From Candidatus Poseidonia sp. (lineage in GTDB: Archaea > Thermoplasmatota > Poseidoniia > Poseidoniales > Poseidoniaceae), in the NCBI GenBank assembly GCA_022426155.1, contig JAKMEE010000017.1, forward strand, positions 1 through 58,156: a DNA stretch of 58,156 bases, written 5' to 3'. The notes beneath the pieces are model-generated. The model ran no database searches. It had not been told where the DNA came from and saw only the letters and a list, made by a program, of their open reading frames with translations. Below are positions 8,944 through 37,823 of this stretch, in pieces (position 1 is the stretch's first letter; each line of letters begins with the position of its first letter). The translations under genes and the position numbers were made by a program.

Positions 8944-10083
8944 GTGGGGTTCGATGTTCACGTGCTTGGTACGGCTTCGGCTCGCCCGACCTCTCGCAGG
9001 GCCGTGAGTGGTAACCTCGTCAAATGCCGTGATGGAGTGGTGGTCATCGATGCTGGTGAAGGATTCCAATCGAGGTATATGGCTCAGCGTCGCCATCTCA
9101 AAGAATTTGAAAAAGGAACGACGGTGAAGACCAATCACGTCTCCGTCCTCGCCTTCACACACGGTCATCTCGACCATACATGGGGTGCTCTTCCATGGAT
9201 GCAAACGATGGGATTGGACCATCGTCAAACCCCTTTACTTGTCCTTGGACCTACCTCTTCAAACGTGATGGACGCCTTGCTGAAAAAGCAATCAATTCCA
9301 ACAGAAACACCTCCCGCAGATTTGGCCCGACAATGGCAAGCCTGGCATCGATTAGGTGCGTCGGGTGAAGGCCTCTCCTATCCCATTCGTTGGGTGCTGG
9401 GTGATGTTTCGCAAGGCCGCTGGGCAGAGATGGACCCACAAACTGGACATTTGACCCTCCTCGAAGGTATGCCTCAACCAGAAGGTTGGAAATCATGCAG
9501 CCTTCAGGCACTTGACACTCAACATTCTGTTCCTTCGTGTGCTTGGGAAGTGAAACAATCTGGCCTAACGGGTACGTTCAATCGACTCAGGGCTGCAGAA
9601 TTACGTTTGAACAAGGAAGAACAACGAGAATTGGCTACGGGCAATGACATCGTTCACAATGGCCAAACCTTGTCAGCCAACAGCTTTCGAAGTGAGGCAG
9701 GTCTTGCACTAAGAGTTGTTCTTTCGGGCGATACTGCGGAAGGGTGGGCTTCTTCCATTGAACCAGGGGCCAACCTGTTGATTCACGAAGCAACCTTCCT
9801 CAACGAGCAGCAAGACAAAGCCAATGAGCACCTTCATTCCACGGCTGCAGGCGCTGTGCGTACCGCTCAGCAAATGAAAGCCTCCCACCTCGCCATCACA
9901 CATTTTAGTAGCCGCCTCAAGAGCCATGAAGCCTCGCTTTCTGAGGCCAACGACACGGGGGCGCTTCCCATCGCTGCCGTGAGTGATGGTGACCGATTCC
10001 TGGTCAATGACGACGGCACAGTGCATCATTTAGTGAAGCATGATAGCGGTTGGACATCAAGGAACATGGAACCCAATCGTTGA
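8944..10083 (+). CDS. rnz: ribonuclease Z (tRNA 3' processing)
   Basis: The 379-residue metallo-beta-lactamase-fold enzyme removes 3' trailers from tRNA precursors. The zinc motif HGHLDH is at residues 73-78, the later metal-binding Asp is in SGDTAEGW, and the RNase Z hallmarks LLIHEATF, an AGAVRTAQQMKASHL helix and THFSSRL follow. The translation starts at a GTG (8944) preceded by GAGGTGATTAA. The protein is about 70 residues longer than common RNase Z, mostly in the middle between the exosite-like region and the GTFNRLRAAEL segment. It fits a genome whose tRNAs lack encoded CCA. Confidence 0.9.
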   Translation: MGFDVHVLGTASARPTSRRAVSGNLVKCRDGVVVIDAGEGFQSRYMAQRRHLKEFEKGTTVKTNHVSVLAFTHGHLDHTWGALPWMQTMGLDHRQTPLLVLGPTSSNVMDALLKKQSIPTETPPADLARQWQAWHRLGASGEGLSYPIRWVLGDVSQGRWAEMDPQTGHLTLLEGMPQPEGWKSCSLQALDTQHSVPSCAWEVKQSGLTGTFNRLRAAELRLNKEEQRELATGNDIVHNGQTLSANSFRSEAGLALRVVLSGDTAEGWASSIEPGANLLIHEATFLNEQQDKANEHLHSTAAGAVRTAQQMKASHLAITHFSSRLKSHEASLSEANDTGALPIAAVSDGDRFLVNDDGTVHHLVKHDSGWTSRNMEPNR

Positions 10084-20900: not shown

Positions 20901-22560
20901 TCGATTCTTCAATAATGGAAATGCACCCATCGGATACGATTTATTCCTTGAAGCACCTACTGGGTGGAGGGCAGGATTCACCAACCTCGGTAGTGAGGCA
21001 GGAGCGACTTCGGGTTCGACAGGATTGATCAACAGTGAAGCCTATCGGGCCGTAGGGTTGACCTTCACCCCCCCTCAAGTAATGACAGGGGCTGGTGCAG
21101 AGCGCATCGTCAAGTTGACTGCTGTGAGCCAAACAGAGCAACAGGTTCTGACCTTGTTTGAAATTCCAATCAAGGTTGAAACCATTCGGGAATTGAACAT
21201 CAATCTTGAATCAGCATTAGGGACACAACGCCCCGACACAAGTTTGACAATGATGTACACTATTGAACACCGCGGCAATGTGGATTTGGATTTGACTCCC
21301 TCATTCCAACTGCCGAGCGGTTGGTCGGTGAGTAGTTCTCTTGAGGTCATTGAACTTTCTTGGGCTTCATCAAAAAATATCCTGTATACACTCGAAGCAA
21401 GCGAGAACGCCAAATCGGGCGAAATCAGTTTGAATTTGGATAACGGTTCCGACCGCTTCACATGGACAAGGGATGTTGTTGTTGAGGTTCTTGCTAAACC
21501 GAGTCTTACGTTTGTTGGCTTGGAATTGGCTGATGGCACTCAGTACGGCACCCTCGCAGAATCAGGCGATCATCCATCTGGAGAGGCCATGACCTTCACA
21601 TGGTTACTTAGCAATGATGCAGACACGCAATGGTCTCCAAGTATCAGTTTAGCACTTGACAGTGGTTTATTCGGGGATTGTGACCCCATTGAAAGCGTGG
21701 GTTTGAACGGTATTTCTCCGGTTATTTGCACGCTTTTAATCGCTGATAATGTACCGCCACGCGCTGAACCCTCATTCACCATCACGCTTTCAGACGATGG
21801 TATTGTTGTCTCCGAGATCGTCGGATTGCGCGTCGCCTCCAATGAAGAAGTTGGATGGGACCTCGGAACTGTTCCCTCCATGCAAACTGGAACTGACGCC
21901 TTTGTGAATGTGGAATTAACCAACATTGGGAATGTCCCAATCCAACGTCAAATTCAGATTTCAACCTCGACTGATTGGGTGATGAAAGTCGATGGAAATG
22001 ATGTGGTCGACCTTGAACCTGGTCAATCCTCCATCGTTCGTTTGGAACTACGAGCCGATCGCCCTGGTACGGGCACAATGACTCTGGAATTGGTAGGAAG
22101 TGAGGCTTCTTCACCGTCGTTCTCTTTCGAAGCAACAGCCACGGGTGAGCCCGTCGGGACCTCAGGTTCAACTGGGCTGAATGGTACGATTGTTCTCACT
22201 CTGCTTGTGGTTCTTGCAGTCCTTGGTTTGGGCGCTACCGTAGGTCTGCGTAAACAGCAGAGTTCAACCACGCCCCTTGTCCAAACAACACCTACAGCAC
22301 CGTTGGCTGGATTGCCCCAACTCGCCGCTCAACCCGCAATGGCTCCTTCAACCGCCCCCGCCACAGTTTCTGCTCCAACACCATCTCCAGTCATTGCACC
22401 CATCTGTTGGAGTTGCAGAAAGAGCATATCAGGTCTCGCAAAGGGTTGTCCTGGTTGTGGTGCAAGGTATCATGCTGGTGGAGAATTAGATTGCAATGCA
22501 GGGCAACTCAGCGAATGTGTGAATTGCCAAGGTACAGCTCAGGCATTTATCCAAGCGTGA
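17971..22560 (+). CDS. subtilase (S8) surface protease with CARDB-like repeats and zinc-ribbon tail
   Basis: The 1529-residue exported serine protease begins at a GTG with AGGAG-like site upstream. After the signal peptide and a pro-region, the subtilisin triad is visible: D304 (VADSGLDGDHGDF), H337 (GHGTHVS) and S530 (GTSMATPNAAGVA). The P-domain-like jelly roll (about 590-720, LVNDLDLTVEAPDG) follows, then several CARDB/NEW3-like domains (VFNFGNAKADSFPVAFEVDG; NIGNVPIQRQ). Near residue 1410-1430 is a membrane helix, then a Pro/Ala-rich linker and a cytoplasmic Cys-rich zinc ribbon (CWSCRK...CPGCG...CVNCQG). It probably degrades external protein near the cell surface. Confidence 0.93.
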   Translation: MKPLGMRGERGRILVVFLLVLLFGSSTGPLLTSAPSQTTIESLVEPEWVQFDLREGVYHDAWGEMDEHLELEVRDIRANSTFGTFDVNGLQVNRPVPSEWMQPRFDLLMVLISDETRFSQARQQLDAIQGLEVREYIAPSGLMVQGTPHALQLAEQHDAVASTHAIPIGMLLDGTLMDVLLFEGGEIALTTSLVRLEGWRDDQGPTDLVHLNDAEGGVIEQRLSSVAAVGLSESRSWDQGRFEGYVQSGELVNIMRQPSVMSLRPDPAFAAFNDLARGHMGTNNMKNYFTTALDGSGQIVAVADSGLDGDHGDFGTRVVGSYDVIGDGSTADKHTGHGTHVSCTILGDGTRGGYGGVAQSTELYFQAMENDNTGNFQSPSLNNLLNTAYNANARIHTNSWGSSDPNQQSKYNSETEDVDDRANYYDRYYNGREGLTILFAAGNDGPGSSTVSPPATAKNIISVGNHQNRYNGAPDNVMQGSSRGPTDDGRLKPDVIAPGGYVRSCRAQEATDTDGATWSNTYYMEYTGTSMATPNAAGVAVMVREYLVEIAQRPSPQGALIKALLVLGAQDVGTRDVPNDDEGWGRINLRNTLAPPSGQGIWVDDRSVMSNTGNSKTYSFNISQSSDQFKAVLTWSDERGSRFSNKQLVNDLDLTVEAPDGTLYLGNDFTNGRSVTGGTRDSINNLEVVLIDNAVQGTWVVKVKDAGHSGSSSQPYAIAIMGHGVNDLRPDPMVQPDDFEMDVTIPQVDDPVQLMTKVFNFGNAKADSFPVAFEVDGNELTRQSIELGAGQTKQLAWSWTPQSSGATTLSFVIDPDQTLEEVRENNNRHDIVVNVTAPGVKLETEVPQILLQSTTQTTTSWNISLTNTALIPTNASMQTGDVTLMSTQTTQPWYVGSTNTNFTLDGQASEIITVTLVHPSPPLPGTYRIDLLGIDNDNGVVYPFNLDLIVPDLPEAAVEYDYQVVPVHPVDPTNISVRFFNNGNAPIGYDLFLEAPTGWRAGFTNLGSEAGATSGSTGLINSEAYRAVGLTFTPPQVMTGAGAERIVKLTAVSQTEQQVLTLFEIPIKVETIRELNINLESALGTQRPDTSLTMMYTIEHRGNVDLDLTPSFQLPSGWSVSSSLEVIELSWASSKNILYTLEASENAKSGEISLNLDNGSDRFTWTRDVVVEVLAKPSLTFVGLELADGTQYGTLAESGDHPSGEAMTFTWLLSNDADTQWSPSISLALDSGLFGDCDPIESVGLNGISPVICTLLIADNVPPRAEPSFTITLSDDGIVVSEIVGLRVASNEEVGWDLGTVPSMQTGTDAFVNVELTNIGNVPIQRQIQISTSTDWVMKVDGNDVVDLEPGQSSIVRLELRADRPGTGTMTLELVGSEASSPSFSFEATATGEPVGTSGSTGLNGTIVLTLLVVLAVLGLGATVGLRKQQSSTTPLVQTTPTAPLAGLPQLAAQPAMAPSTAPATVSAPTPSPVIAPICWSCRKSISGLAKGCPGCGARYHAGGELDCNAGQLSECVNCQGTAQAFIQA

Positions 22561-25660: not shown

Positions 25661-26134
25661 ATGTCGGGATTTGAATCGGTGCCTGCAGAATATCTTTCGA
25701 TTGGTTTTTTGACCATTCTCGGTATCATTATGCCCTTGACAAATTTCCTCATCACTTGGGTCGTTCGACCTAAGGTCGACCCTGCCCGCCCACATATCAC
25801 TCGTTCTTACCTTTTGGAAGGCTATGAGCGTGACCACAGCCTCTACCCTCGCCGCTTGACCACCTTCGAGTGTGGCAGTGAACCCGTTGGAGAAGCCATG
25901 ATTCAATTCCACTTCCAATATTACTGGTACGCCATCATTTTCTTGGTCTTTGATGTGGCCTTCATGTTCTTGGTTCTCGGTGGAATGGTGGCGGCTGACG
26001 CTACCGCCCCAGGTGCCGCCCCCGATGCAGTCGCTAATGCCACCGGTGCCCTTGGCGTCCTCGCAGCATTCTTCATCACGATTTCAGCAGGCGTATGGTA
26101 CGTGTTCCGTAAGCGAGGCCGAATTTACATTTGA
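25661..26134 (+). CDS. nuoA: complex I subunit A
   Basis: The 157-residue, three-helix ND3/NuoA subunit sits at the junction of the membrane arm and the quinone cavity. Its hallmark loop reads TTFECGSEPVGEA, with the ND3 loop cysteine, followed by FHFQYYWYAIIFLVFDVAFMF. The usual FDVE motif is FDVA here, so the conserved membrane glutamate (E81 in E. coli) is missing. The mature protein has an Ala/Pro-rich loop before the third helix. It heads a 12-gene run in which most neighbours are 2-10 bp apart or overlap. Confidence 0.93.
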   Translation: MSGFESVPAEYLSIGFLTILGIIMPLTNFLITWVVRPKVDPARPHITRSYLLEGYERDHSLYPRRLTTFECGSEPVGEAMIQFHFQYYWYAIIFLVFDVAFMFLVLGGMVAADATAPGAAPDAVANATGALGVLAAFFITISAGVWYVFRKRGRIYI

Positions 26135-26140
26135 GGTGAG

Positions 26141-26737
26141 ATGATGGCAGGACAAGACGAGAATTTTGCAGCCTTTAACAGCCGTGCGTTGGTTGAGATG
26201 GTTGGAGACGTGACGGATGAAGCTCTCAAAGCAACCAAGATCAAACAATTCCTGAGCGTGTTGGCTGGCCGCTATTTCAATTGGGCTGGCCGCAAATCTC
26301 TCTTCACACTTCACCTTGGAATCAAGTGTTGCGCTATTGAGATGGCTGCCGCAGCAACCCCTCGTTTTGATGGTGACCGATTCGGAGTTCTGTTCCGCTC
26401 CTCTCCTCGCCAATCCGATGTATTGCTTGTCAACGGGCCAATCTCCAAGAAATTCGCAGACAAAATCGTGCGCCTATGGGAGCAAATGCCTGAACCCAAG
26501 TACTGCATCGCTATGGGGGAATGCGCCATTTCCGGTGGACCTTATTTCCAATCTTACAACATCCTTGAAGGCGTTGACACCGTCATTCCAGTCGATGTTT
26601 ACATTCCAGGATGCCCTCCTCGTCCCGAAGCACTCATCGATGGATTCGGTTTGCTTCGTGAGAAAATTATCCGAATTGGTGCGGCCCCAAGCAGCGGCCG
26701 TAAGGGTGACAAACCCATCATTGTTGGAGAGGACTGA
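26141..26737 (+). CDS. nuoB: complex I subunit B (N2 cluster)
   Basis: This 198-residue subunit binds the terminal [4Fe-4S] cluster N2 that reduces the quinone or equivalent acceptor. All expected ligands are visible: the tandem Cys pair in GIKCCAIEMAA, the Cys in AMGECAISGG and the Cys in YIPGCPPRPEALIDG. Two ATG codons stand together at 26141 and 26144 behind GAGGTGAG; either could start. It begins 6 bp after nuoA. Confidence 0.96.
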   Translation: MMAGQDENFAAFNSRALVEMVGDVTDEALKATKIKQFLSVLAGRYFNWAGRKSLFTLHLGIKCCAIEMAAAATPRFDGDRFGVLFRSSPRQSDVLLVNGPISKKFADKIVRLWEQMPEPKYCIAMGECAISGGPYFQSYNILEGVDTVIPVDVYIPGCPPRPEALIDGFGLLREKIIRIGAAPSSGRKGDKPIIVGED

Positions 26738-26739
26738 AC

Positions 26740-27393
26740 ATGGGTATGCGTATTTCCCTTGAGCAAAGTGAATCAGCCGCACAGACGTGTGTTGATACTA
26801 TCATGAAGCGCTTCGATGGCATCGGCGCTACAGCATCGGTTGAACACCATTCCAACGCCCTCAAGATGGCATTTGTTCGCATTTCAACACCACCACAACA
26901 CTGGCCCGCCATGGCAAAAACACTCCGTTTTGACCACGGGGTGAATTATTGTTCAATGGTCACCGGCACTCATTTCCCTGACGGTGGCGCTGACCGAGGA
27001 TGGGAAGTCGTGTATCACATGATGCGACAACCTGTGGTCGACCAAGCCCCCAACACCAATACGGTTCACGAGGCAACAAAACTCTCGGGAAGCGACATCC
27101 CCCTTGAACTCGAAATCATCATCACACTCCCACAAACCGACGAGCCCAGTGTACCTAGCGTGCAAAAGATCTGGGTTGGCGCTGATTGGAATGAAAAGGA
27201 AACTTGGGATTTGGTTGGAATTCGTTTTGAGGGCCACGAAAATATGCATCGTGTTCTCAATCCCCACGATAGCCCAGAGGGATTCCATCCTTTGCAAAAG
27301 CAACACAAAATACGCTATCATGGTTTCAATGAAATGTACGATGACGCTCAAGGATTCGGGCGTAAACCAACCGATGAGGATCGGGTCAAGTGA
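26740..27393 (+). CDS. nuoC: complex I subunit C
   Basis: The 217-residue 30-kDa-type subunit supports the NuoB/NuoD core. The family signature is seen near the C-terminus as WDLVGIRFEGHENMHRVLNPHD followed by GFHPLQKQH. The N-terminal half has the alpha/beta domain with DHGVNYCSMVTGTHFPD. It is separate from NuoD, not fused as in some bacteria. It starts 2 bp after nuoB and ends 9 bp before nuoD. Confidence 0.93.
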   Translation: MGMRISLEQSESAAQTCVDTIMKRFDGIGATASVEHHSNALKMAFVRISTPPQHWPAMAKTLRFDHGVNYCSMVTGTHFPDGGADRGWEVVYHMMRQPVVDQAPNTNTVHEATKLSGSDIPLELEIIITLPQTDEPSVPSVQKIWVGADWNEKETWDLVGIRFEGHENMHRVLNPHDSPEGFHPLQKQHKIRYHGFNEMYDDAQGFGRKPTDEDRVK

Positions 27394-27402
27394 GGTGATA
27401 GA

Positions 27403-28542
27403 ATGGCACAAATGTGGATTACAATGGGACCTCAACACCCGATGACGCACGGTCTGTGGACTCTACGCGTGAAGGTTGACGGCGAAACAGTCGTTGACAC
27501 CGACGCCGAACTTGGCTACATTCATCGCGGCGTCGAAAAGATTGCCGAAGCACGGGATTTCACACAAATCACGCCCTACTGTGACCGACTCTGTTACGTG
27601 AGTGCCATGACTTGGGCAAATTCCTACATCTATGCTGCAGAGGACTTACTCGAAGTCGAAGTGCCAGAGCGAGCGGAATACATCCGTCTAATCTCCGCCG
27701 AGTGCCAACGCTTGGCTTCTCACCTGATGTGGCTGGGCGCCTACGGCCCAGATATTGGGAGTCTCACGCTCATGACCTGGTGCATGCGAGACCGCGAAAT
27801 GTTCCTTGATTTACTTCAGGAACTCGGGGGCTCACGAATGCATTACAATTACCCTCGAGTCGGCGGTGTCAAGCGTGACATTCCCGTTGGATTTGCTGAC
27901 CGATTGGTCGCTAAGGTGAAGTTGTTCGAAAAGCGAATCGAAGAATACGAAATGATGCTTGATGAATCAACCATTTGGCTAGTCCGCCTCCAAGGTGTCG
28001 GCTACGCCAATGCAGAAGATATGGTGAATGCCGGTGTTTCCGGCCCTAATATCCGCGCAGCTGGTGTGAACTATGACGTACGTTGGGCGCACCCCTACTC
28101 GGTTTACGACCAAGTAGACTGGGAGCCTGCAGTTGAGAAGCCAACCTCCGTGAAAGGTGCTGATTGTTACGACCGATACCGTGTTCGGATGGAAGAAATG
28201 CGCCAATCCTGTAAAATGATTCTCGACGCCATTGAGCGTATCCCTGGTGGAAAGAACACGAATTATTCCAGCGGCGACGAGATGATTCTTGCCAAGGCAC
28301 CCACTCGAGCTCCAGAAGGTGCAACAGGATTTTCACATTATGAATGCACCCGTGGGGCCTCTCAATTCTACATTCAAGGTGGTGGCGATGGCCGTGGGAA
28401 GAATCCCTACCGTTTGTCCATTCGTTCTCCGATGTTCATTACCATCCCATACGTGGCCAAGACCATGATTGGATACAAAGTTGCAGACATACCTGCTATC
28501 ATGGGCAGTTTCGATCCATGCATTGGGGAGACCGATCGTTGA
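27403..28542 (+). CDS. nuoD: complex I subunit D (quinone-site subunit)
   Basis: The 379-residue 49-kDa-type subunit forms the quinone site with NuoB. The N-terminal loop GPQHPMTHGLW carries the quinone-region His, and a Tyr equivalent to the ligand Tyr is in CDRLCYVSAM. The C-terminus MGSFDPCIGETDR matches the complex I ending and lacks the cysteine pairs of [NiFe] hydrogenases, so this is respiratory complex I rather than a hydrogenase. The start is preceded by GAGGTGATAGA. Confidence 0.96.
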   Translation: MAQMWITMGPQHPMTHGLWTLRVKVDGETVVDTDAELGYIHRGVEKIAEARDFTQITPYCDRLCYVSAMTWANSYIYAAEDLLEVEVPERAEYIRLISAECQRLASHLMWLGAYGPDIGSLTLMTWCMRDREMFLDLLQELGGSRMHYNYPRVGGVKRDIPVGFADRLVAKVKLFEKRIEEYEMMLDESTIWLVRLQGVGYANAEDMVNAGVSGPNIRAAGVNYDVRWAHPYSVYDQVDWEPAVEKPTSVKGADCYDRYRVRMEEMRQSCKMILDAIERIPGGKNTNYSSGDEMILAKAPTRAPEGATGFSHYECTRGASQFYIQGGGDGRGKNPYRLSIRSPMFITIPYVAKTMIGYKVADIPAIMGSFDPCIGETDR

Positions 28543-28551
28543 GGTGATATC

Positions 28552-30078
28552 ATGGATGACAGGTACGATCTCGTTGGATTTTTCATTGACAAAGAGGGGG
28601 GCTTCCGCTCAACTCTCATGTCCTTGCTGGATGGCTCCCCACTCAGTGATAGTGCAGGAAGCATCTCCTTTGCTGCTGGCACCTTTGCTTTGGTGAACAT
28701 CGTCTTCTTGATGTTGTTCTTTTCACAATTCGCCATCCTATGGATTGAGCGCAAGGCAGTAGCTCGTATGCAAGACCGATACGGCGCAACAACGGCTCTT
28801 CGTTCCCTCTGGGTCGGAGAAAACGGCGTCACTGCGGGCGAGTGGTGGAACATGCTCCCATTCGGAGCAGGCAAACCCATCGGGGCCCTCAATGGATGGT
28901 TGAACAAGCGATTTGGAAATCGTGATGAGAATTTCCCGACCGTTGACCGTGTTAACAACCGTTCTTGGATGGGGAAGACCATCTTCCCTGGGTTCTTCCA
29001 AAATGTGGCCGATGGAATGAAATTCTTGGTCAAGGAACACATGGTCCCACAACGAGCAGACCGTTTGATTTTCGAAGTCTCACCCTTCCTCATCGTATCC
29101 TCTACCCTTCTTATTCTCGGAATGATTCCACTTTCAAGTGGTATTTATGCCACCAATCCAGACCTGTCCATCCTCTATGCCATCGCTATCTTTGGTATTG
29201 CACCCATCGGGGTTTTCTTTGCAGGCTGGTCGTCCAATAACAAGTACACATTGATTGGAGGAATCCGCTCCGCTGCTCAATTGACGGCCTATGAGATTCC
29301 TCTTCTGTTGACGTTGTTATCAGTTGCCGTTCTCTCTGGAACCTTCAACATCGTCGACAGCATCCACTTCCAGCATTCGGCAGGCTCCTGGAACATCTTC
29401 CTCATGCCGTTGGGTGCTGCTCTGTTCTTGGTAACGATGATCGCTGAAGTCGAGCGTGTACCCTTTGACATGCCAGAGGCTGAAGCTGAACTGGTCGAAG
29501 GCTGGTGGACAGAATACGGCGGAATGCGCTTTGGTATGCTGTTCATGGCAGAATACATTCGCACTTACGCTGCTTGTTTCCTCTTCACTCACTTCTTCCT
29601 TGGTGGATGGCATTTGCCCTTCCAAGGCACCATCGGTTCCATCGAAATGTTGGGCATTGGAAGCGCCTATCTTCTTATTCCCGGAGCGGTCATGACGCTT
29701 GTGAAATCCTGGTTAGTCTTCCTGATTGTCTTCGTTTGGGCACGTTTCGCTTTGGCTCGTATTCGAACCGACCAAATCCTGGAATTCGGATGGCGAATGT
29801 TACTCCCTCTCGCAGTTCTGCAAGTTGTACTTGCCTTTGTGTATCGCCTCTATCTCTTCAACCCCGACGGTATGCTTGCTGACAAGAATGCAAGCGGCAC
29901 AGGGTCCGCTTGGGATGCGATTGGTCTTCCAGCGATGGTACCCATCCTCACCACCCTCTTCTGGCTGGCCATCTTCGTGATTTACTTGAACGATGAAGAC
30001 AAATCGGCCACACCAGAACGAATGTTCCATGTCCATACAATTGAACCCGCGGGAACGGTCGTCCCGGGGAAGGAGTGA
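28552..30078 (+). CDS. nuoH: complex I subunit H, with extra loop and C-terminal extension
   Basis: This membrane subunit forms the quinone entry tunnel. The signature FDMPEAEAELVEGWWTEYGGMRFGMLFMAEY is intact. At 508 residues it is about 170 longer than E. coli NuoH. About 55-60 extra residues (roughly residues 80-148) lie between ERKAVARMQDRYG and the NVADGMKFLVKE helix, a place where bacteria have about a dozen residues. A C-terminal part adds another membrane helix and a charged tail. GAGGTGATATC precedes the start. Confidence 0.95.
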   Translation: MDDRYDLVGFFIDKEGGFRSTLMSLLDGSPLSDSAGSISFAAGTFALVNIVFLMLFFSQFAILWIERKAVARMQDRYGATTALRSLWVGENGVTAGEWWNMLPFGAGKPIGALNGWLNKRFGNRDENFPTVDRVNNRSWMGKTIFPGFFQNVADGMKFLVKEHMVPQRADRLIFEVSPFLIVSSTLLILGMIPLSSGIYATNPDLSILYAIAIFGIAPIGVFFAGWSSNNKYTLIGGIRSAAQLTAYEIPLLLTLLSVAVLSGTFNIVDSIHFQHSAGSWNIFLMPLGAALFLVTMIAEVERVPFDMPEAEAELVEGWWTEYGGMRFGMLFMAEYIRTYAACFLFTHFFLGGWHLPFQGTIGSIEMLGIGSAYLLIPGAVMTLVKSWLVFLIVFVWARFALARIRTDQILEFGWRMLLPLAVLQVVLAFVYRLYLFNPDGMLADKNASGTGSAWDAIGLPAMVPILTTLFWLAIFVIYLNDEDKSATPERMFHVHTIEPAGTVVPGKE

Positions 30079-30087
30079 GGTGAAACT

Positions 30088-31089
30088 ATGCCAATGCATC
30101 CACACGCACAGCCGAATTTTAGAAACCTCTTTTGGTACCCGTTTAAAATCACCCTCATCACAGCACTACGGACGTTCCCGTTCATTGGGAAGCGGTTCGG
30201 AAAGCGCTTGGGGGCCTATCACAACACCAGCCATCCTGAATTCCTCGATGATGCCAGCCGGGCCCGCGCAGCTTCATCAGCCGAGATGAACGACATCACT
30301 CGACAAGAATTTGCACCAGACCGAGTGACTTCTGACCTCAAACCAACACTATGGAAGCCCCAAACGGTTCAATATCCCTACGAACGGTTGGAGGACATGG
30401 AGCCCTGGCTCTTTGTCCCAGGAAATTACAACGGTCGTATCGGTGTGATTTGGGAGACATGTACAGCGTGCAAGATGTGCGTGAATATTTGCCCCAACGA
30501 TTGCCTTCACATGACCACGGAATTGCGTGTTGACGTTCTTGACAACGCAGAAGGAGAACACGGTGGCCTTGGCATGGAACTTGAAGTCGGTAAGTTCGCA
30601 GCCGTTCCCAAAGAAGAAGTTGTTAAGGAATTGGCTACGTTTAATCACGTGACAGCCCACCAAGATGTTCCACAAGAATGGCGCTTCGCTGAAGTTCTCG
30701 ACCTTTCTGGCACCTCTGCTACCGTCCGATGGAATGATTCTGGTAAGGAATCCGTCGTCGAGCAATCAGAATTGCGTACCGCTGATGATCAAATTGTATC
30801 CGGGCGTATCGACCTAGGTCGCTGCATGTTCTGTGGATTGTGTATGGAGTCCTGTGGATTTACATCCTTCTTCATGACCAATGAATACGATGGAATGTCC
30901 GGCTTCACACGCCAAGACCTCTGGTTTGACGCATCACGAACTCGTGTTCTTCCAAGCGTTCACCAAGAAGCCGTTGATGCTGAACTTGCGAAGCGCGCTT
31001 CCAAGGAACGCACCAAGCGAGCCAAGAAGGCGGCCAAGGCAGCGGCAGAAACTGCCAAACCAGCCGAAGCCCAAAAGGGGGACGCCTGA
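30088..31089 (+). CDS. nuoI: complex I subunit I (two [4Fe-4S]) with inserted domain
   Basis: This 8Fe ferredoxin-like subunit passes electrons to NuoB. The first cluster motif is CTACKMCVNICP (C125, C128, C131, C135), the second CMFCGLCMESCG (C246, C249, C252, C256), with the usual last Pro replaced by Gly. The motifs are 110 residues apart against about 30 in bacteria. The insert includes AEVLDLSGTSATVRWNDSG and VEQSEL, which look like an SH3/Tudor-type barrel. The N-terminus is longer than usual and the C-terminus is a Lys/Ala-rich helix. Total 333 residues against about 160-180. Confidence 0.94.
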   Translation: MPMHPHAQPNFRNLFWYPFKITLITALRTFPFIGKRFGKRLGAYHNTSHPEFLDDASRARAASSAEMNDITRQEFAPDRVTSDLKPTLWKPQTVQYPYERLEDMEPWLFVPGNYNGRIGVIWETCTACKMCVNICPNDCLHMTTELRVDVLDNAEGEHGGLGMELEVGKFAAVPKEEVVKELATFNHVTAHQDVPQEWRFAEVLDLSGTSATVRWNDSGKESVVEQSELRTADDQIVSGRIDLGRCMFCGLCMESCGFTSFFMTNEYDGMSGFTRQDLWFDASRTRVLPSVHQEAVDAELAKRASKERTKRAKKAAKAAAETAKPAEAQKGDA

Positions 31090-31090
31090 G

Positions 31091-31366
31091 ATGGATGTAG
31101 CGAGCGCAGCCGAAACCGGCGTGTTCTTCCTGTTTGCAGCAATAACGCTCGGCGGTGCGCTGGGCCTTATATTCGCACAAAGGGTTGCACACTCGATGCT
31201 ATCGCTAATCTTCTGTTTCATGGCCGTCTCTGGCATTTTCATCCTTCTAGGTGCTGAATTCCTTGCTGCCATTCAAATTCTGGTTTATCTTGCCAGTGTT
31301 GGATTGGTGGTTCTGTTTGGAATCATGTTAACCCGGCGCCAAATCTTGGAGGAGGACTTCGAATGA
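31091..31366 (+). CDS. nuoJ: complex I subunit J, N-terminal half protein
   Basis: The 91-residue protein holds the first three helices of NuoJ/ND6. The conserved helix GAEFLAAIQILVYLASVGLVVLFGIML, with its Glu and Tyr, is intact. The ATG at 31091 directly follows the nuoI stop; longer in-frame starts lie inside nuoI. Its stop overlaps the next start as ATGA (31363-31366). Splitting of this subunit into two genes is known in archaeal Fpo-type operons, so this is not a frameshift. Confidence 0.9.
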   Translation: MDVASAAETGVFFLFAAITLGGALGLIFAQRVAHSMLSLIFCFMAVSGIFILLGAEFLAAIQILVYLASVGLVVLFGIMLTRRQILEEDFE

Positions 31367-31632
31367 AATTCCTGTCCTTATTCACCCGCTTGGGTTTGTT
31401 AGCCTTGGGCTTCATCCTCGTTGCCATTGTCAACGATGACTCGGTTTGGAGTAAAACAACCGAATCTAGCCCGAGCACATCTGGATTAGCAGATTCTCTA
31501 CTCAACGAGTGGGGGTTGGGCTTGATGGTCCTTGGTCTCCTCATGGCTATGGCCATGATGGGTGCTGCTTACCTCGTCCGTGATGAACGGATGGAAAACC
31601 TACTTTGGGAATTTGGAGGGGAAGAGGAATGA
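31363..31632 (+). CDS. complex I subunit J, C-terminal half protein
   Basis: The 89-residue protein has two membrane helices (about 8-24 and 50-70) with a Ser/Thr-rich loop between them and an acidic tail ending in FGGEEE. Its place between NuoJ-N and NuoK and its size fit the C-terminal half of NuoJ, as in split archaeal J1/J2 arrangements; sequence similarity alone would be too weak. It overlaps both neighbours by four bases (ATGA at 31363 and 31629). Confidence 0.8.
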   Translation: MKFLSLFTRLGLLALGFILVAIVNDDSVWSKTTESSPSTSGLADSLLNEWGLGLMVLGLLMAMAMMGAAYLVRDERMENLLWEFGGEEE

Positions 31633-31931
31633 TTGATCCAGCATGGGTCTCTGGGCTCTCAGCTCTTTTGTTCGTCATTGGCTTGGCCGGTGCTTTCACT
31701 CGTAAGAACGCCATTATTGTCTTGATGTGCATTGAATTAATGCTCAACGCTGCCAACATGCAATTTGCTGCAGCCGCCGTACATCACGGCGATTCAACAG
31801 GATGGGTTTACACGCTCTTCGCCATCGCCATCGCTGCGAGTGAAGTTGCGATTGGTCTTGCTATCTTCTTGGCCATGTACGGTCAACACGAATCGATTAC
31901 ACTGGACGATGTAAACGTCCTGAAGAACTGA
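31629..31931 (+). CDS. nuoK: complex I subunit K
   Basis: The 100-residue, three-helix ND4L/NuoK subunit has both membrane glutamates of the proton path: CIELMLNAANM in helix 2 and IAIAASEVAIGLAIF in helix 3. The ATG at 31629 overlaps the previous stop as ATGA and has GGAAGAGGA upstream; an earlier in-frame Met at 31605 would add eight non-family residues. Confidence 0.93.
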   Translation: MIDPAWVSGLSALLFVIGLAGAFTRKNAIIVLMCIELMLNAANMQFAAAAVHHGDSTGWVYTLFAIAIAASEVAIGLAIFLAMYGQHESITLDDVNVLKN

Positions 31932-31937
31932 GGTGAG

Positions 31938-34484
31938 ATGATGGGTGGTACAAGCAGTTCTGAAATTATCGTTCAAAGCACAGCGGCTGAATATGCGCCG
32001 TTGATTCTCCTCTTGCCCATGTTGGCATTCCCTGTGATTTTGTTCCTAGGGAAAGTCTTCAACGGCAATCCATTTTGGAAGAACAATCTCAAGGAAGGCG
32101 GTTTGATTGCTCTCACCGTCATGGGAGCAAGCCTGATTCTTGCCCTTGCCGTGGCTCGTGACTTCATCGGTGGGTTTTCCAGTATGGAAGAGCTTTCAGA
32201 GTGGGTTTGGTTCACTTCAGCTACATGGGAATCAACCACCATGATGACCAAGGAAATTTCCTTTGGATTTGGTGTCCATATCGACCACATCACCGTGATG
32301 TTGCTCTTCATCGCCGCTTTCTTGTGTTTCCTCATCAACACCTTTGCGATCGGATACATGAACACGGACCCGATCAATGATAACCGCAACCATCGCTTCT
32401 ATGCTGAATTCGTCTTGTTCTGTTCCGGTATGCTTGGAATGGTTTTGGCAGATTCATTCCTCTGGTTATTCATCTTCTGGGAATTGATGGGACTCTGTTC
32501 TTATCTTCTCATCGGATTCTATTACGAACGCCCAAGTGCTGCTTACGCCGCCAAGAAGGCGTTTTTGACCACCCGTGTCGGGGACGTTTTCCTGATGGTC
32601 GGTTTGGCCATGCTCTGGGGCATGTTCGGGTCGCTTGACTATGATGTAATTTTCAATGCTCTCGAGGATGAAAATTTCATGGCAGGTATCTCATCGAGCA
32701 CCCTACAATGGACCCTTGGTTTGATGTTCATTGGTGCGGTTGGTAAATCTGCTCAATTCCCGCTTCACGTTTGGTTACCCGACGCCATGGAAGGCCCAAC
32801 GCCCGTTTCTGCCCTCATCCATGCTGCAACCATGGTTAACGCAGGTTTGTACCTCGTCGCTCGTATGTTCCCATTCTTTGGTGCTGAAGCCCTTCATGGA
32901 GACTTGGTGGATTTGGCTTTCATCATCGCTGCAATCGGTGGTATCACCGCCGTTATGGCTGCTGCAATTGCCTTCGTCCAGAATGATTTGAAGAAGGTTC
33001 TCGCTTACTCGACCATGTCTCAACTGGCTTACATCTTCACCGGATTAGGTTGTGCACTTTGGCTAGCAAACAGTCTTGACTGGCATCACGACAGCAAAGC
33101 TCACGGCATTGTGATCGTTGCTTTTGGAGCAGCCCTCTTCCACCTCTTCAACCACGCCATGGCCAAAGGAATGCTCTTCATGGCCAGTGGTGCAGTCATT
33201 CACGAAGTGCACCATGCTCACCATCACCTGCATCACCATGACGACCATCAACATGAGAGCAAACATCCAAAGGAATTGGTCATGCTCAACGATTATCTTG
33301 AACAAACAGGTCAAACGGTCTATGAATTCTTCAAATCCATCGATTTGGATGGTTCTGGTGAAATTGACATGTATGAGTTCCAAACGGCACTCAAGAATGC
33401 AGAGATTGCTGACCTTCCCCCCTGGGAGACTGAGCCCTTGTTGGCAGCCATTGATTTGGACGGCAATGAGAAAATTAACGTCCCTGAACTAGAAATCACG
33501 CTTGGTAATCTCAAGATGGACGACCATGATCACCACGAAGAAGAGTTTGATGCACAATCCATGGAGAACATGGGAGGGCTTGCGTCCAAGATGCCAATCA
33601 CTGCCACAGCCATGCTTGTTGGTTCCCTTTCCATCATGGGCTTCCCACTTATCGGTGGTTTTTGGTCCAAGGAAGGCATCATTGCTAATGCTTGGCGAGT
33701 GGCCCTCGAGGATCCACGCTTCTTCTTCCCAGCCGCTTGTGTTTTACTCGGGGCAGGAATGACAGGATTCTACATGTCAAGGATGTGGCTCAAAACCTTC
33801 GCTGGTTCACCCAAGACCGAAGTCGCAGCCCATGTTGCTCCAACCAATACTTGGATCAAAACACCGCTCTTTCTCCTCACCTTTGTGAGTCTGGCTGGTA
33901 TCATCTTTGCTGGAATGGGCTTCACCCATTGGGCACCTGACGAAGGGTACGCTCCCTTCTTTGATGGCAAAAAGGGACTCATGGAAGGCATCCTCTACGA
34001 AATGGAACATGCCTTTGCAAACCACGATAGTTTCTTTTTCATCCTTTCCTATGTAGCCCTCATTTTGGGCGCCATCATCGGGCCTGGTCTGGCGTTGTCA
34101 TTGTACGGTGGCTCCCTTGATGAAGGAGAGCAAGCCAAGCCTTGGTTCGGCCCAATCTTGGCTTTGAACGCAGCTATCAAAGGCCGCTATCACTGGGATA
34201 ACTCTGCCTTGGCACAGTCGAGTCTTGCAACAGCACTTTCGAATCGTTTGTACTTCGATCACTACTATGACATGGCGATGTTGAAGATTGTCGCTGCTTT
34301 CTCATTCAAGGCTGCTGAAGCAGATTCAGGTGTTATCGATGGCGCTATCAAATCCATTGAACGAGGTTCTCAGAACCTGTCCACACGAGTTCGCGCTCTG
34401 ACGACTGGATCGGCACGTGATTACATCCTCATGGCGGCTGTTGGGACCTTAGCCTTGTTTGGATTGATTTGGGGGGTGGCCTGA
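31938..34484 (+). CDS. nuoL: complex I subunit L with inserted EF-hand pair
   Basis: The 848-residue antiporter-like subunit pumps protons at the far end of the membrane arm. Expected features are WELMGLCSYLLIGFYY (TM5 Glu), FPLHVWLPDAMEGPTPVSALIHAATMV (broken helix, Lys upstream), FSKEG-type GFWSKEGIIA and the C-terminal lateral helix with DGAIKSIERGSQNL. It is about 230 residues longer than E. coli NuoL. About 130 residues are inserted between GAVIHEV and MGGLASKMPITA, containing a His-rich linker and two EF-hands (see separate entry). Starts at GAGGTGAG-ATG; the stop overlaps nuoM as TGATG. Confidence 0.96.
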   Translation: MMGGTSSSEIIVQSTAAEYAPLILLLPMLAFPVILFLGKVFNGNPFWKNNLKEGGLIALTVMGASLILALAVARDFIGGFSSMEELSEWVWFTSATWESTTMMTKEISFGFGVHIDHITVMLLFIAAFLCFLINTFAIGYMNTDPINDNRNHRFYAEFVLFCSGMLGMVLADSFLWLFIFWELMGLCSYLLIGFYYERPSAAYAAKKAFLTTRVGDVFLMVGLAMLWGMFGSLDYDVIFNALEDENFMAGISSSTLQWTLGLMFIGAVGKSAQFPLHVWLPDAMEGPTPVSALIHAATMVNAGLYLVARMFPFFGAEALHGDLVDLAFIIAAIGGITAVMAAAIAFVQNDLKKVLAYSTMSQLAYIFTGLGCALWLANSLDWHHDSKAHGIVIVAFGAALFHLFNHAMAKGMLFMASGAVIHEVHHAHHHLHHHDDHQHESKHPKELVMLNDYLEQTGQTVYEFFKSIDLDGSGEIDMYEFQTALKNAEIADLPPWETEPLLAAIDLDGNEKINVPELEITLGNLKMDDHDHHEEEFDAQSMENMGGLASKMPITATAMLVGSLSIMGFPLIGGFWSKEGIIANAWRVALEDPRFFFPAACVLLGAGMTGFYMSRMWLKTFAGSPKTEVAAHVAPTNTWIKTPLFLLTFVSLAGIIFAGMGFTHWAPDEGYAPFFDGKKGLMEGILYEMEHAFANHDSFFFILSYVALILGAIIGPGLALSLYGGSLDEGEQAKPWFGPILALNAAIKGRYHWDNSALAQSSLATALSNRLYFDHYYDMAMLKIVAAFSFKAAEADSGVIDGAIKSIERGSQNLSTRVRALTTGSARDYILMAAVGTLALFGLIWGVA
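33201..33570 (+). other. EF-hand pair and His-rich insert within NuoL
   Basis: Encoded residues about 422-544 of NuoL. A stretch with a dozen or so His (HHAHHHLHHHDDHQHE) leads into a helix, loop 1 DLDGSGEIDMYE (residues 469-480; ligands at positions 1, 3, 5, 9 and 12 all present, Gly at 6, Ile at 8), a second helix pair, loop 2 DLDGNEKINVPE (506-517; Glu instead of Gly at position 6), then DDHDHHEEE. The loops start 37 residues apart, as in calmodulin-type pairs. By homology to the TM11-TM12 loop it should face the cytoplasm. Confidence 0.85.
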
Positions 34485-36112
34485 TGAGCGATTGGATTTC
34501 CATCCCACTGGTTGGATTACCATTGATCAGCAGCATGGTACTGTTGGCTTTCACCGCTAATGCTTCAGAATCTGCTCGTGCTAAGATGGGTGATTCCATT
34601 CGCTGGGTCACCCTTGCTTTCTCGTTGGCCATGTTGGCAGTCACCACAGCCATGTTCTTTGGTTCGCTGGAATCAAACATGCTCGATTGGAGCACCATGA
34701 CGTTCGGTTCCTTCAACTTTGAATACCGTTACACATGGATTGAATCCTTGGGGATTCACTGGAGTGTTGGATTGGATGCGCTTTCTTTCCCGATGGTTTG
34801 GTTAACGACGTTCCTCCTTCCAATCACCATCATCGCAACGTGGAATGAGAAGAACCCAACCACCTACTTCCCACTCCTGCTCATGATGGGAGGCGCCCTC
34901 ATTGGCGTCTTTGTGGCATTGGACTTGTTCATGTTCTATGTGTTCTGGGAATTGACTCTCATTCCAATGTTCTTCCTCATCCTCAAATGGGGAGGCGTTG
35001 ATCGGAAATATGCTGCACAGAAATTCTTCATCTACACCTTCACCGCTTCTGTTGTGATGTTGCTTGGATTGGTGACATTGTATTTCTTGCAACCAGATTC
35101 AGCCCTTCTCTATTCAGGAACTTGGACAGGACGAACGTTCGATATTCCAACTCTGATTTCGCATGCCCACCTCGCCAACACCGAGGGATGGTTCCTCGGT
35201 GAAAGCATGCAGAAGGTTTTGTTCGTCATGCTCATGCTTGGGTTCCTCGTGAAGTTGCCATCGGTCCCCTTCCACACTTGGTTGCCCGATGCCCACGTTC
35301 AAGCGCCTACAGGGGGTTCCATGCTCTTGGCTGGTGTGATGTTGAAGATGGGCGCTTACGGTATGTTCCGTTTGCCGCTGGCTATGTTCCCTCACGCTCT
35401 AGAATATTTCCAGTTGGCGTTGATGCTCTTCGGTATGGTTTCCCTTGTTTGGGGGGCCATCGTCTGTTTAGGTCAAACCAATTTGAAGAAAATGGTGGCT
35501 TACTCCTCCGTGTCTCACATGGGTGTGATCTGTATTGGAATCGCCACTATGCAACCTCTCGGTTGGGCAGCAGCGCTCTTCATGATGTTTGCTCACGGAA
35601 TCATCAGCCCAATGCTCTTCGCTGTGTGCGGTGCCTTCAAGCATCATTACCACAGCATGGAAATTGGTGCCATGCGTGGTATGGCCAAGCATTCACCGTG
35701 GTTGGCAACCTCCATGATGTTCGCTTGGATGGCTTCGCTCGGTCTTCCGTTGCTCGCTGGTTTCGTTGCTGAACTCATGATGTTCCTTGCTCTCTGGCAC
35801 TTCATTGCTGCTGAAGGATGGAGTGTATTGTGGATGGTGGGACCTGCCCTTGTGCTCGCCCTTACTGCTGCCTATTACCTCTGGTCCATGCAACGCACCA
35901 TCTTCGAAGGTGGAGACGAAACACAACCCCCAGCTTCCCTTCACGGTGAAGCCGTTCCAGACATTTCAGATTCAGAGAAGTTTGCTATGATTGTGATGGC
36001 GGTCTTCACCATTTTGTTTGGTGTCATGCCTTGGATTGCCTTGGATATGATGCACGGTTGGACGGTGACTTTCTTTGAAACGATCCTTGCCCCATCCATC
36101 GGAGGTGCCTGA
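34484..36112 (+). CDS. nuoM: complex I subunit M
   Basis: The 542-residue antiporter-like subunit has the expected charged motifs: FYVFWELTLIPMFFLI (TM5 Glu), KLPSVPFHTWLPDAHVQAPTGGSMLLAG (broken helix) and KMVAYSSVSHMGV. Length is close to bacterial NuoM, with no large insertion, in contrast to NuoL. The ATG at 34484 overlaps the nuoL stop by one base; an upstream in-frame start at 34469 lies inside nuoL. Confidence 0.95.
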   Translation: MSDWISIPLVGLPLISSMVLLAFTANASESARAKMGDSIRWVTLAFSLAMLAVTTAMFFGSLESNMLDWSTMTFGSFNFEYRYTWIESLGIHWSVGLDALSFPMVWLTTFLLPITIIATWNEKNPTTYFPLLLMMGGALIGVFVALDLFMFYVFWELTLIPMFFLILKWGGVDRKYAAQKFFIYTFTASVVMLLGLVTLYFLQPDSALLYSGTWTGRTFDIPTLISHAHLANTEGWFLGESMQKVLFVMLMLGFLVKLPSVPFHTWLPDAHVQAPTGGSMLLAGVMLKMGAYGMFRLPLAMFPHALEYFQLALMLFGMVSLVWGAIVCLGQTNLKKMVAYSSVSHMGVICIGIATMQPLGWAAALFMMFAHGIISPMLFAVCGAFKHHYHSMEIGAMRGMAKHSPWLATSMMFAWMASLGLPLLAGFVAELMMFLALWHFIAAEGWSVLWMVGPALVLALTAAYYLWSMQRTIFEGGDETQPPASLHGEAVPDISDSEKFAMIVMAVFTILFGVMPWIALDMMHGWTVTFFETILAPSIGGA

Positions 36113-36113
36113 A

Positions 36114-37823
36114 ATGACTGAAACAACCATCGAACCATTTGCAGAAGGATTCGTGATGGCTCTCGCGCCAGAGTTTGTTCTTGTGATTGGTTTGTTCACC
36201 CTCATACTGGTCCCAAACATGGGCGATGCAAAGTTCAGAATCCCATTGACTCAGATTCGTATTCCTTGGTTCCTCGGAGGTAAGCGAGGCACCTTGGATC
36301 GAGATCCACGCTTACCAGGATTGTTCGCTAGTATCTTCCTCACCGTCTCATTTTTGATGGCGCTTGCATCGTTTGTTGGTGGCATGGAGCGGGTGAACAT
36401 CACCACAGCAAACGGCACTGAATTATTCCGAGTTGATGAGTTCAGTCGCATGTTCGAGGTCATCTTCTACGGTGCACTTTCGTTGGCTTCTATCGCTTCA
36501 ATTGACCGTTTACCAGCCACAAGCACAGCAGACCGGTCCCTTTCAGGATTGTACAACAATCGCCGTCAAGTGGATTTCTACATCTTGTTAATGACCTGTG
36601 GATTGGGTATGTCGGTCGTCGCACTCTCCCAAGATTTGTTCATGCTCTTCATCGGATTGGAGTTGGCCTCGTTCTCAACCTATGTGCTCGTTGCCTTCAT
36701 GAAAGAGACACCAGAAGGAACTGAATCCGGTATGAAATACTTCATCGTCGGTTCAGTCGCTTCTGGTGTTGGTCTGTACGGTCTCTCGTTGCTCTACCTC
36801 TGGTCTGGCTCGTTGCAATTTGATGGCCCAGGAGGACTCTCCGAGGCCTTCAGAACATCGGGAATGGAGCCCTTGCCTCTCGTGGCGCTTGGCCTGATTC
36901 TGGTTGGATTCGGTTTCAAAGTCAGTGCCGCTCCCTTCCACTTTGCTGCGCCCGATGCTTATGCAGGTGCTACAGGCCCTGTTGCAGGTGTCCTTGCAAC
37001 TGCCAGCAAGGCCATGGGAATTCTCGGGCTTCTCCGAATTCTTCTCGTGGTTGCCTCCCCTGAAAACACTGAGGGTAGCGCCGTGTGGCTCGTTGCACTC
37101 GGTGTGCTTGCAGCCGTGACCATGACCTGGGGCAACCTTGCAGCATTGGGTTCAACCAATCCCAAGCGCATGCTCGCCTATTCCTCGGTCGCTCATGCAG
37201 GTTACATGCTTGCAGCGTTGACGGCCGTGGGCGTTTGGAGTGAAGACACTGCTTTCGCAGATGACGCTTCTATGGCTGTTGTCACCGCCCTCATCTTCCA
37301 TCTCGTTGTATTGGTCTGTTTCAAGTTGGGTGCTTTCTTGGTGCTCTCCATTCTTGAATCCGAAAAGGGTGGTCATACCTTGGAATCACTCGGTGGATTG
37401 GCCAAGCGGGAACCTCTCCTTGCCGTTGCCATGTTCATCTTCATGATGTCTCTCGCCGGCGTTCCACCGTTGTCTGGGTTTGTCTCGAAACTACTTGTGA
37501 TCATGGGAATCGTCAAGGTTGCTGTGGGAGGAGCCCTTGTCAATGGAGGAACACTCAACTTCAGCGATCTGCATTGGGTTTGGTACCTCGCTTTGTTGAT
37601 GGTTCTCAATTCTGCCATTTCGGTGTTCTACTACTTGCGTGTAGGATTGGTTATGTTCTTCCATGAACCAGAAGAGGGACGAGAAGGTCGCTTACCATCG
37701 GGTAAATCGATTCGTTTTGCTGTCCTTGCGTGCGTGATGACGACGATTTACTTCGGAGTGGGAGCTGACCAACTCATTACGGTCTGTCAATCAGCCGCTA
37801 ATGCTTTGCTCAACGTCTGGTGA
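36114..37823 (+). CDS. nuoN: complex I subunit N
   Basis: The 569-residue antiporter-like subunit is next to NuoK in the membrane arm. Motifs are FIGLELASFSTYVLVAF (TM5 Glu), FKVSAAPFHFAAPDAYAGATGPVAGVLATASKA and KRMLAYSSVAHAGYML. An extra hydrophilic loop (about residues 50-80) follows the first helix. It starts one base after the nuoM stop behind GGAGGTGCC and is the last gene of the operon; no nuoE, F or G gene follows. Confidence 0.95.
   Translation: MTETTIEPFAEGFVMALAPEFVLVIGLFTLILVPNMGDAKFRIPLTQIRIPWFLGGKRGTLDRDPRLPGLFASIFLTVSFLMALASFVGGMERVNITTANGTELFRVDEFSRMFEVIFYGALSLASIASIDRLPATSTADRSLSGLYNNRRQVDFYILLMTCGLGMSVVALSQDLFMLFIGLELASFSTYVLVAFMKETPEGTESGMKYFIVGSVASGVGLYGLSLLYLWSGSLQFDGPGGLSEAFRTSGMEPLPLVALGLILVGFGFKVSAAPFHFAAPDAYAGATGPVAGVLATASKAMGILGLLRILLVVASPENTEGSAVWLVALGVLAAVTMTWGNLAALGSTNPKRMLAYSSVAHAGYMLAALTAVGVWSEDTAFADDASMAVVTALIFHLVVLVCFKLGAFLVLSILESEKGGHTLESLGGLAKREPLLAVAMFIFMMSLAGVPPLSGFVSKLLVIMGIVKVAVGGALVNGGTLNFSDLHWVWYLALLMVLNSAISVFYYLRVGLVMFFHEPEEGREGRLPSGKSIRFAVLACVMTTIYFGVGADQLITVCQSAANALLNVW

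Follow-up and report, generated by a model that had tools for sequence, protein, structure and literature searches.

EF-hands are known to let Ca2+ tune mitochondrial respiration in aralar and in the mitochondrial glycerol-3-phosphate dehydrogenase. NuoL, a membrane subunit of complex I, presumably has 16 transmembrane (TM) helices, with the loop between TM11 and TM12 on the cytoplasmic side, as in E. coli complex I. We describe here a nuoL gene of Candidatus Poseidonia sp., of the family Poseidoniaceae in the archaeal order Poseidoniales, whose product carries an EF-hand pair inserted in this loop. The gene lies in a stretch of 58,156 nucleotides (GCA_022426155.1, JAKMEE010000017.1, positions 1 to 58,156, forward strand), and "the window" below means the whole of that stretch.

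In the portions of the literature at hand, each Poseidoniales subgroup has been described as having its own specific families that bear calcium-binding domains, with a suggested role in signaling (PMC9258230), the complex I of Marine Group II (MGII) has been described as canonical and a Na+-driven ATP synthase inferred in 75% of genomes (PMC6336850), and the EF-hand passages of a third source concern LETM1 only (PMC13311838). A preliminary description of the window had stated that no complex I with a calcium-binding pumping subunit was known; in agreement with it, the literature that we searched, whose coverage leaves out most subscription journals, yielded no EF-hand in NuoL or another complex I pumping subunit, and for an EF-hand in archaeal ATP synthase subunit I it yielded only unrelated titles.

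The NuoL insert

The nuoL reading frame is unbroken, with no internal stop, and other nuo genes flank it on both sides, all on the plus strand (Table 1). The parts of the protein flanking the insert match the NuoL/ND5 family (PF00361, E = 1.9e-64). The NCBIfam model NDH_I_L is matched at 436 bits, above its cut-off of 407.5, and the equivalog PRK06590 at 459 bits, below its cut-off of 556. The motifs HAMAKGMLF, 5' of the insert, and GFWSKEG, 3' of it, which we take to be conserved channel motifs of NuoL, are both kept as in relatives. The frame is thus intact and the flanking TM motifs are conserved, as first described, and on these matches we identify the 848-aa protein as the NuoL subunit of complex I.

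When the protein is aligned to 6hum_F, the best-matching solved chain, the alignment breaks off at residue 426 and restarts at residue 539, and among the 60 best of 158 matched solved chains no best stretch passes residue 428; the insert therefore lies between TM11 and TM12. Scanned as an isolated stretch of 123 residues, it matches the Pfam families EF-hand_1 (E = 8.6e-9, 34.8 bits, cut-off 25.4) and EF-hand_7 (E = 2.7e-8, 34.5 bits, cut-off 30); in the scan of the whole protein EF-hand_1 is above its cut-off at 28.2 bits and EF-hand_7, at 29.9, is just below. The two calcium loops are spaced 37 residues apart, as the preliminary description had them, and a profile of the module matches calmodulins and Ca2+-dependent kinases among solved structures, with a best E of 3.2e-20. 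A chance motif was considered as the source of the EF-hand match and is ruled out by the profile scores.

An AlphaFold2 (AF2) model places helices at residues 445-457, 461-468, 478-487, 499-505, and 515-528, with single bridge residues inside the loops, so that a local helix-loop-helix appears twice within residues 441-530 (predicted local distance difference test [pLDDT] scores of 64-80 over the block). The rest of the model, for which the alignment was too shallow (34 rows, of which 24 were module fragments), is poor, and the Foldseek list of the full-length model indicates that the fold resembles NuoL and nothing more. Judged by profiles and loop residues, the insert is a genuine EF-hand pair that resembles a calmodulin lobe, and these features strongly suggest that it binds Ca2+.

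Conservation and selection within the genus

Our survey covered 292 genomes of the order, 27 of them from Candidatus Poseidonia, the window's own included; a Candidatus Poseidonia alphae record is among the NuoL loci. The insert is present in 26 of the 27. A single match runs through TM11, the insert, and TM12 in 25 of these genomes, and in another (G086) the module is covered by a match that breaks off at base 1 of the contig. In the remaining genome (G222) the best match starts immediately beyond the module and extends to base 9276 of a contig of 9277 bases; cut by the contig end, it is therefore uninformative on the insert. An assembly chimera, for which the preliminary description had proposed looking in related genomes, is ruled out by this distribution.

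All 25 complete EF1 loops from the genus have D, D, S, D, and E at positions 1, 3, 5, 9, and 12, where the EF2 loops have D, D/N, N/D (one unread), N/D, and E. Position 6 is Gly in 25/25 EF1 and 24/25 EF2 loops, and position 8 is I, V, or L in all. The ligand columns are less variable than the other columns of the module (mean entropy, 0.16 versus 0.68 bits; p = 0.006), and several non-ligand columns, e.g., LPPW, are invariant in the genus too. The median ratio of nonsynonymous to synonymous substitution rates (dN/dS) within the genus is 0.060 for the insert (56 pairs) and 0.076 for the rest of NuoL (68 pairs), as calculated from 19 NuoL sequences with 68 of 171 pairs at dS < 1.5 and 56 with a finite value for the insert, the pairs sharing lineages and so not being independent. 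The insert is under purifying selection.

The His/Asp-rich linker

NuoL proteins across the order were compared using only frames longer than 700 aa with set motifs, which gave 70 sequences. An EF pair is present in 30 of them, 22 from Poseidonia and 8 from a genus of another family, g19. The other 40 rows, or 39 when a second row from one genome (G117) is dropped, lack it; these 39 represent 18 genera, with 24 sequences from family f1 and 15 from family f2. They share the start VIHE(V/M)HHAH, and nearly all have a His/Asp-rich linker between TM11 and TM12. Linker lengths vary freely among NuoL proteins. The Poseidonia EF pair is found mid-linker, with His/Asp codons on either side.

The preliminary description had noted this His/Asp stretch on both sides of the EF-hands and had counted it as part of the same novelty. 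The stretch is indeed there, as an old linker split in two, but EF-less relatives carry it as well, and it is therefore not part of the EF insert. From this comparison, the His-rich linker is a separate, older, and order-wide feature inside which the EF pair appears to have landed.

A second gain in another family

Ten genomes of genus g19 were surveyed; nine have an EF pair in the same NuoL loop, and one is without any match. The g19 EF2 is canonical, and the ligand columns are again less variable than the other module columns (mean entropy, 0.09 versus 0.53 bits; p = 0.012). The g19 NuoL retains the FDPQDMRNMGGL flank typical of its own family. A NuoL tree calculated without the loop, with at most five NuoL sequences per genus (43 of the 70 kept, hence 43 rows), gives two gains of the EF pair, both forced by branches starred in that tree.

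Trees of the module itself (83 columns, 93 rows) leave many forks open. The first, from which modules more than 93% identical to a kept one were dropped, as were, bar one, those shorter than 70 aa, has a starred branch that divides the g19 modules from the Poseidonia NuoL modules, with the bootstrap not settled. In a thinner tree, with an 85% identity limit and the zinc-ribbon group excluded, the starred branches force only one origin, and a single clade of NuoL modules is not rejected by the AU (approximately unbiased) test (p = 0.47). A single origin of the insert in both genera is disfavored by the NuoL tree, and the module trees do not decide. It is thus the host tree, and not the module tree, that shows two gains of the EF pair in NuoL, and it leaves room for a transfer of the loop alone between the two families.

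The module in other membrane proteins

The module, ~80 residues long, recurs elsewhere in the window genome and its relatives. Beyond what was first described, no fewer than three further membrane proteins of the order carry it, and two of these belong to energy-coupling complexes. The consensus of 14 copies picked for host coverage is ELVMLA.YL....QTVFEFF.SIDLD.SGEID..EFQ.ALK.A.IA.LPPWE...LV.A.DLDGDGKINLPELD. Strong copies (E <= 1e-20) occur in 147 of the 292 genomes and in 12 of 22 genera of the order. Outside the order none was detected at E <= 1e-12 in a search of the phylum (389 genomes), in which the matches came from 79 genomes, every one a member of the order itself; this search tests for the present module and not for any EF-hand in any NuoL. 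Sorted by host with a sequence motif, the distinct copies at the loci examined number 46 in a COX-like protein, 35 in NuoL, 24 in subunit I of the ATP synthase, 6 in NuoJ, and 16 unnamed, the last being assigned for the tree to a host by eye (10) or to a zinc-ribbon group (6).

In genus g11 the module lies in subunit I of the A-type ATP synthase (V_ATPase_I, E = 7.9e-33, together with EF-hands), at a place that, judged from the sequence, immediately precedes the membrane part, as seen in six copies that were all selected for carrying it. Poseidonia subunit I is without the module in 4/4 genomes examined and has a short His/Asp linker at the same place, and g11 NuoL has the linker without the module in 13/13. 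The module is thus found in different machines, each time within a His/Asp linker, and recombination between the CAY/GAY-rich stretches that encode the linkers would be a plausible route of shuffling.

In genera g19 and g3 the second half of NuoJ has the module on its C-terminal tail. A helix-hairpin-helix-like stretch behind the module, e.g., IKGIGPFIAEKLNALGIY, is shared by one NuoJ tail (L102) and two COX-like tails (L126 and L127); it presumably resembles an extension of some NuoE proteins. The ending -EEE closes several of these chains, namely, the second half of NuoJ in the window (position 31629) and the COX-like and NuoJ tails in L107, L112, and L113.

The COX-like protein has 12 to 13 helices and a C-terminal module. 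Of the 11 genera in the window's family, 9 have it as judged by motif and the remaining two by eye, the window genome being included. No oxidase family scored over the cut-off (Pfam, E <= 0.01; NCBIfam, 0.1), and the best 60 of 281 solved chains matched its profile on the EF part. A model of one copy (from genome G011 of genus g11; mean pLDDT, 73.1) resembles CcoN of the cbb3 oxidase in Foldseek (E = 1.8e-9; TM-score by target, at most 0.75), with 12-14% identity to cbb3 chains. True heme-copper oxidases have six ligand His residues; in the membrane part of the COX-like protein only two His residues are invariant among 18 sequences, and the window genome copy has three in all, which marks it as a pseudo-oxidase. 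The model and the His count identify it as a cbb3-fold pseudo-oxidase with an EF-hand tail.

Further EF-hand-like features were seen at other loci. In the window genome, contig C42 (21503-22450; L004) has a frame of 669 aa with three EF-hand pairs and a double zinc ribbon, the latter just below the Pfam cut-off; by eye it has membrane helices, and it might be a dedicated Ca2+ sensor. Also by eye, the C-terminal tail of an amino-acid-permease-like protein on contig C40 (L109, minus strand) is EF-hand-like, and two EF-like loops are present in a 454-aa membrane protein on contig C3 (L111, minus strand). In genus g7 and named relatives (L120, L218, and L227) the module follows a Glu/Pro-rich stretch in a further protein, whose length in L120 is 628 aa.

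Membrane orientation

In the window NuoL, Lys and Arg residues number 14 in the putative cytoplasmic loops, with the insert loop excluded, and 3 in the outer loops. Together with the presumed topology of NuoL this makes it likely, if weakly so, that the insert is on the cytoplasmic side. The N-terminal domain of ATP synthase subunit I is cytosolic, and COX1-fold proteins have both ends in the cytoplasm; if these topologies apply, at least three hosts expose the module to the cytoplasm. Free Ca2+ in the cytoplasm is normally low. The window genome encodes two predicted proteins of the Na_Ca_ex family, which makes Ca2+ export by them plausible.

Gene neighborhood

The features are listed in Table 1. 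The products of nuoM and nuoN gave no EF-hand match (Pfam, E <= 0.001). NuoJ is divided into two overlapping open reading frames (ORFs) (window positions 30881-31366 and 31363-31632), the second of which scores 21.8 bits in Pfam, below the cut-off of 33.2. NuoI is long, at 333 aa, and only partly matches the Fer4 families; NuoH has 508 aa. Genes nuoE, nuoF, and nuoG are not among the ORFs scanned in the cluster (25661-37823), the rest of the genome being outside that search. Upstream of the complex I cluster, at window positions 17971-22560, is a 1529-aa subtilase (Peptidase_S8) with a CARDB domain.

Table 1. Features of the nuoL locus and of other module-bearing genes
Feature	Position	Strand	Remarks
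nuoL, complex I antiporter-like subunit L with EF-hand insert	31938..34484	+	848 aa; ORF, Pfam, NCBIfam, solved-chain alignment
EF-hand module, profile match to residues 446-530	33273..33527	+	Entering helix, EF1, LPPWE linker, EF2, exit helix
EF1 calcium loop DLDGSGEIDMYE, residues 469-480	33342..33377	+	Predicted from Pfam and loop conservation
EF2 calcium loop DLDGNEKINVPE, residues 506-517	33453..33488	+	Predicted from loop conservation; position 6 is Glu here
Upstream half of His/Asp-rich TM11-TM12 linker, residues 425-443	33210..33266	+	Order-wide; NuoL comparison
Downstream half of His/Asp/Glu-rich linker, residues 528-536	33519..33545	+	Precedes FDAQSMENMGGL and TM12; overlaps end of profile match
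nuoA, B, C, D, H, I, J (two ORFs), K	25661..31931	+	Directly 5' of nuoL; Pfam, ORFs
nuoM and nuoN	34469..37823	+	Pfam; M and N assigned from order and length alone
A-type ATP synthase subunit I with module inside His/Asp linker (genus g11)	L096 2480-4885 (G011); also L097, L098, L106, L145, L260		
COX-like protein of the window genome (G000), 647 aa	G000 contig C22, module 90359-90610; locus L107 4330-6270	minus	EF-hand pair is the C-terminal tail

Discussion

NuoL and the EF-hand are both of known kinds; their fusion in a proton-pumping core subunit did not turn up in the literature that we searched. We lean, if only slightly, toward the view that the insert is a cytoplasmic Ca2+-sensing module which tunes energy-coupling complexes and which in NuoL shifts the distal channel and its pumping. 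A module of the Poseidoniales family would have been captured into the pre-existing His/Asp-rich cytoplasmic TM11-TM12 loop of the Candidatus Poseidonia NuoL. On a rise in cytoplasmic Ca2+ the EF pair would load the ion and its helices would open, and the opened pair, with altered contacts to the neighboring membrane surface or to a partner, might pull on TM11/TM12 or bind beside them. The half of the distal ion channel formed by TM11/TM12 would then shift, with a changed pumping rate or coupling; the outcome of Ca2+ loading could be a slowed, locked, or uncoupled distal pump. We take TM12 to bear the conserved channel lysine (in GFWSKEG) and TM11 a conserved His motif, and the loop between them would therefore be a natural lever on the distal channel. 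Both the lever action and a regulatory effect on pumping are inferred.

Several observations weigh against this view. The EF2 loop of the window is the sole copy of 25 with Glu at position 6, although its side-chain ligands are all kept. In g19, position 6 of EF1 is Arg in 9/9 sequences and position 9 is Thr in 6/9, so that a single ion may be all that one of the two NuoL lineages binds. Among the more distantly related pairs within the genus, some have insert dN/dS values as high as 0.28-0.33. The 39 NuoL proteins from other genera are without the insert, and complex I as such therefore has no need of it. The full-length NuoL model has a mean pLDDT of only 42.6, so that contacts between module and channel cannot be read from it. 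It also supplied the TM borders for the charge count, in which 10 of the 14 positive charges lie in one long loop, the short loops alone giving 4 versus 3.

The EF pair might instead be a docking or assembly element that binds a partner, such as another respiratory complex or a soluble protein, in the Ca2+-loaded state or otherwise, and has no part in gating the pump. EF-hand pairs often bind target helices, as in calmodulin-like proteins, and the presence of the module on several membrane proteins is what would be expected of a shared docking tag; contact at the distal NuoL would be plausible, and a partner surface could explain the invariance of LPPW and other non-ligand columns within the genus. 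The ligand positions are nonetheless conserved above the average of the module, which points to ion binding and not to a surface only, and no partner is known. We consider docking unlikely but worth keeping in mind.

Some EF pairs are structural, and a constitutively metal-loaded pair could act as a clamp that stiffens the long and charged His/Asp loop without sensing anything. Against this, the 39 NuoL proteins of other genera keep the loop without a clamp, and the cytoplasmic position argues for low resting Ca2+, so that we find a clamp improbable. We give still less credence to the linker itself as the functional element, one that would bind metal (Zn, Ni, or Cu) or buffer protons while the EF pair merely accompanies it. 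The linker is order-wide in NuoL and is found also in subunit I of the four Poseidonia genomes examined, but the module is present where no His linker is seen, on the COX-like and NuoJ tails, and is therefore independent of it. Least credible, and already disfavored, is a neutral passenger, i.e., a shuffled domain tolerated in a flexible linker, since the ease of insertion into a low-complexity stretch and the free variation in linker length are outweighed by the median dN/dS of 0.06, the conserved ligands, the presence of the insert in 26/27 genomes, and the two gains in the same loop.

The sensing function that we favor for NuoL may belong to something wider, which we put forward more tentatively and with appreciable doubt: a Ca2+ control layer of the Poseidoniales, in which one EF family on NuoL (twice), NuoJ, the A-type ATP synthase stator, and an oxidase-fold protein would let cytoplasmic Ca2+ set the ion-motive force. 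The module would have been shuffled between genes partly by way of matching His/Asp-rich linkers.

Repeated capture of one module by several energy-related membrane proteins in an abundant marine archaeal order is unexpected, and if the proposal is true, calcium may tune energy-making in these ocean microbes. It opens testable questions, such as whether intracellular Ca2+ is an archaeal signal and whether complex I is regulated through its TM11-TM12 loop. A small domain, the module can probably be expressed with ease, and ready controls exist in the natural pairs with and without it (Poseidonia versus g11, and NuoL versus subunit I).

Compared with the antiporter-like subunit NuoL/ND5/FpoL, the Poseidonia protein has the same TM motifs and operon context and matches the same Pfam and NCBIfam models, but it adds a TM11-TM12 insert of ~100 residues with an EF-hand pair, a region left uncrossed in the best 60 of 158 solved chains. 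The EF pairs of calmodulin and of calcium-dependent protein kinases share with the module the loop ligands, the hydrophobic position 8, the 37-residue spacing, and, as far as predicted locally in the AF2 model, the helix-loop-helix pairing; the Poseidonia module differs in lying inside a membrane subunit and in having a conserved leading helix and the LPPWE linker. The subgroup-specific families reported earlier come from the same order and likewise have calcium-binding domains, and the portions of that report at hand do not name NuoL, the ATP synthase, or the oxidase among them (PMC9258230). In aralar and the mitochondrial glycerol-3-phosphate dehydrogenase, as here, EF-hands are tied to respiration, but those proteins feed the chain and are not proton-pumping core subunits. 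A Poseidoniales control layer would have its mitochondrial parallel in the action of matrix Ca2+, but the route would be an entirely different one, the calcium-binding module being built into the machines themselves.

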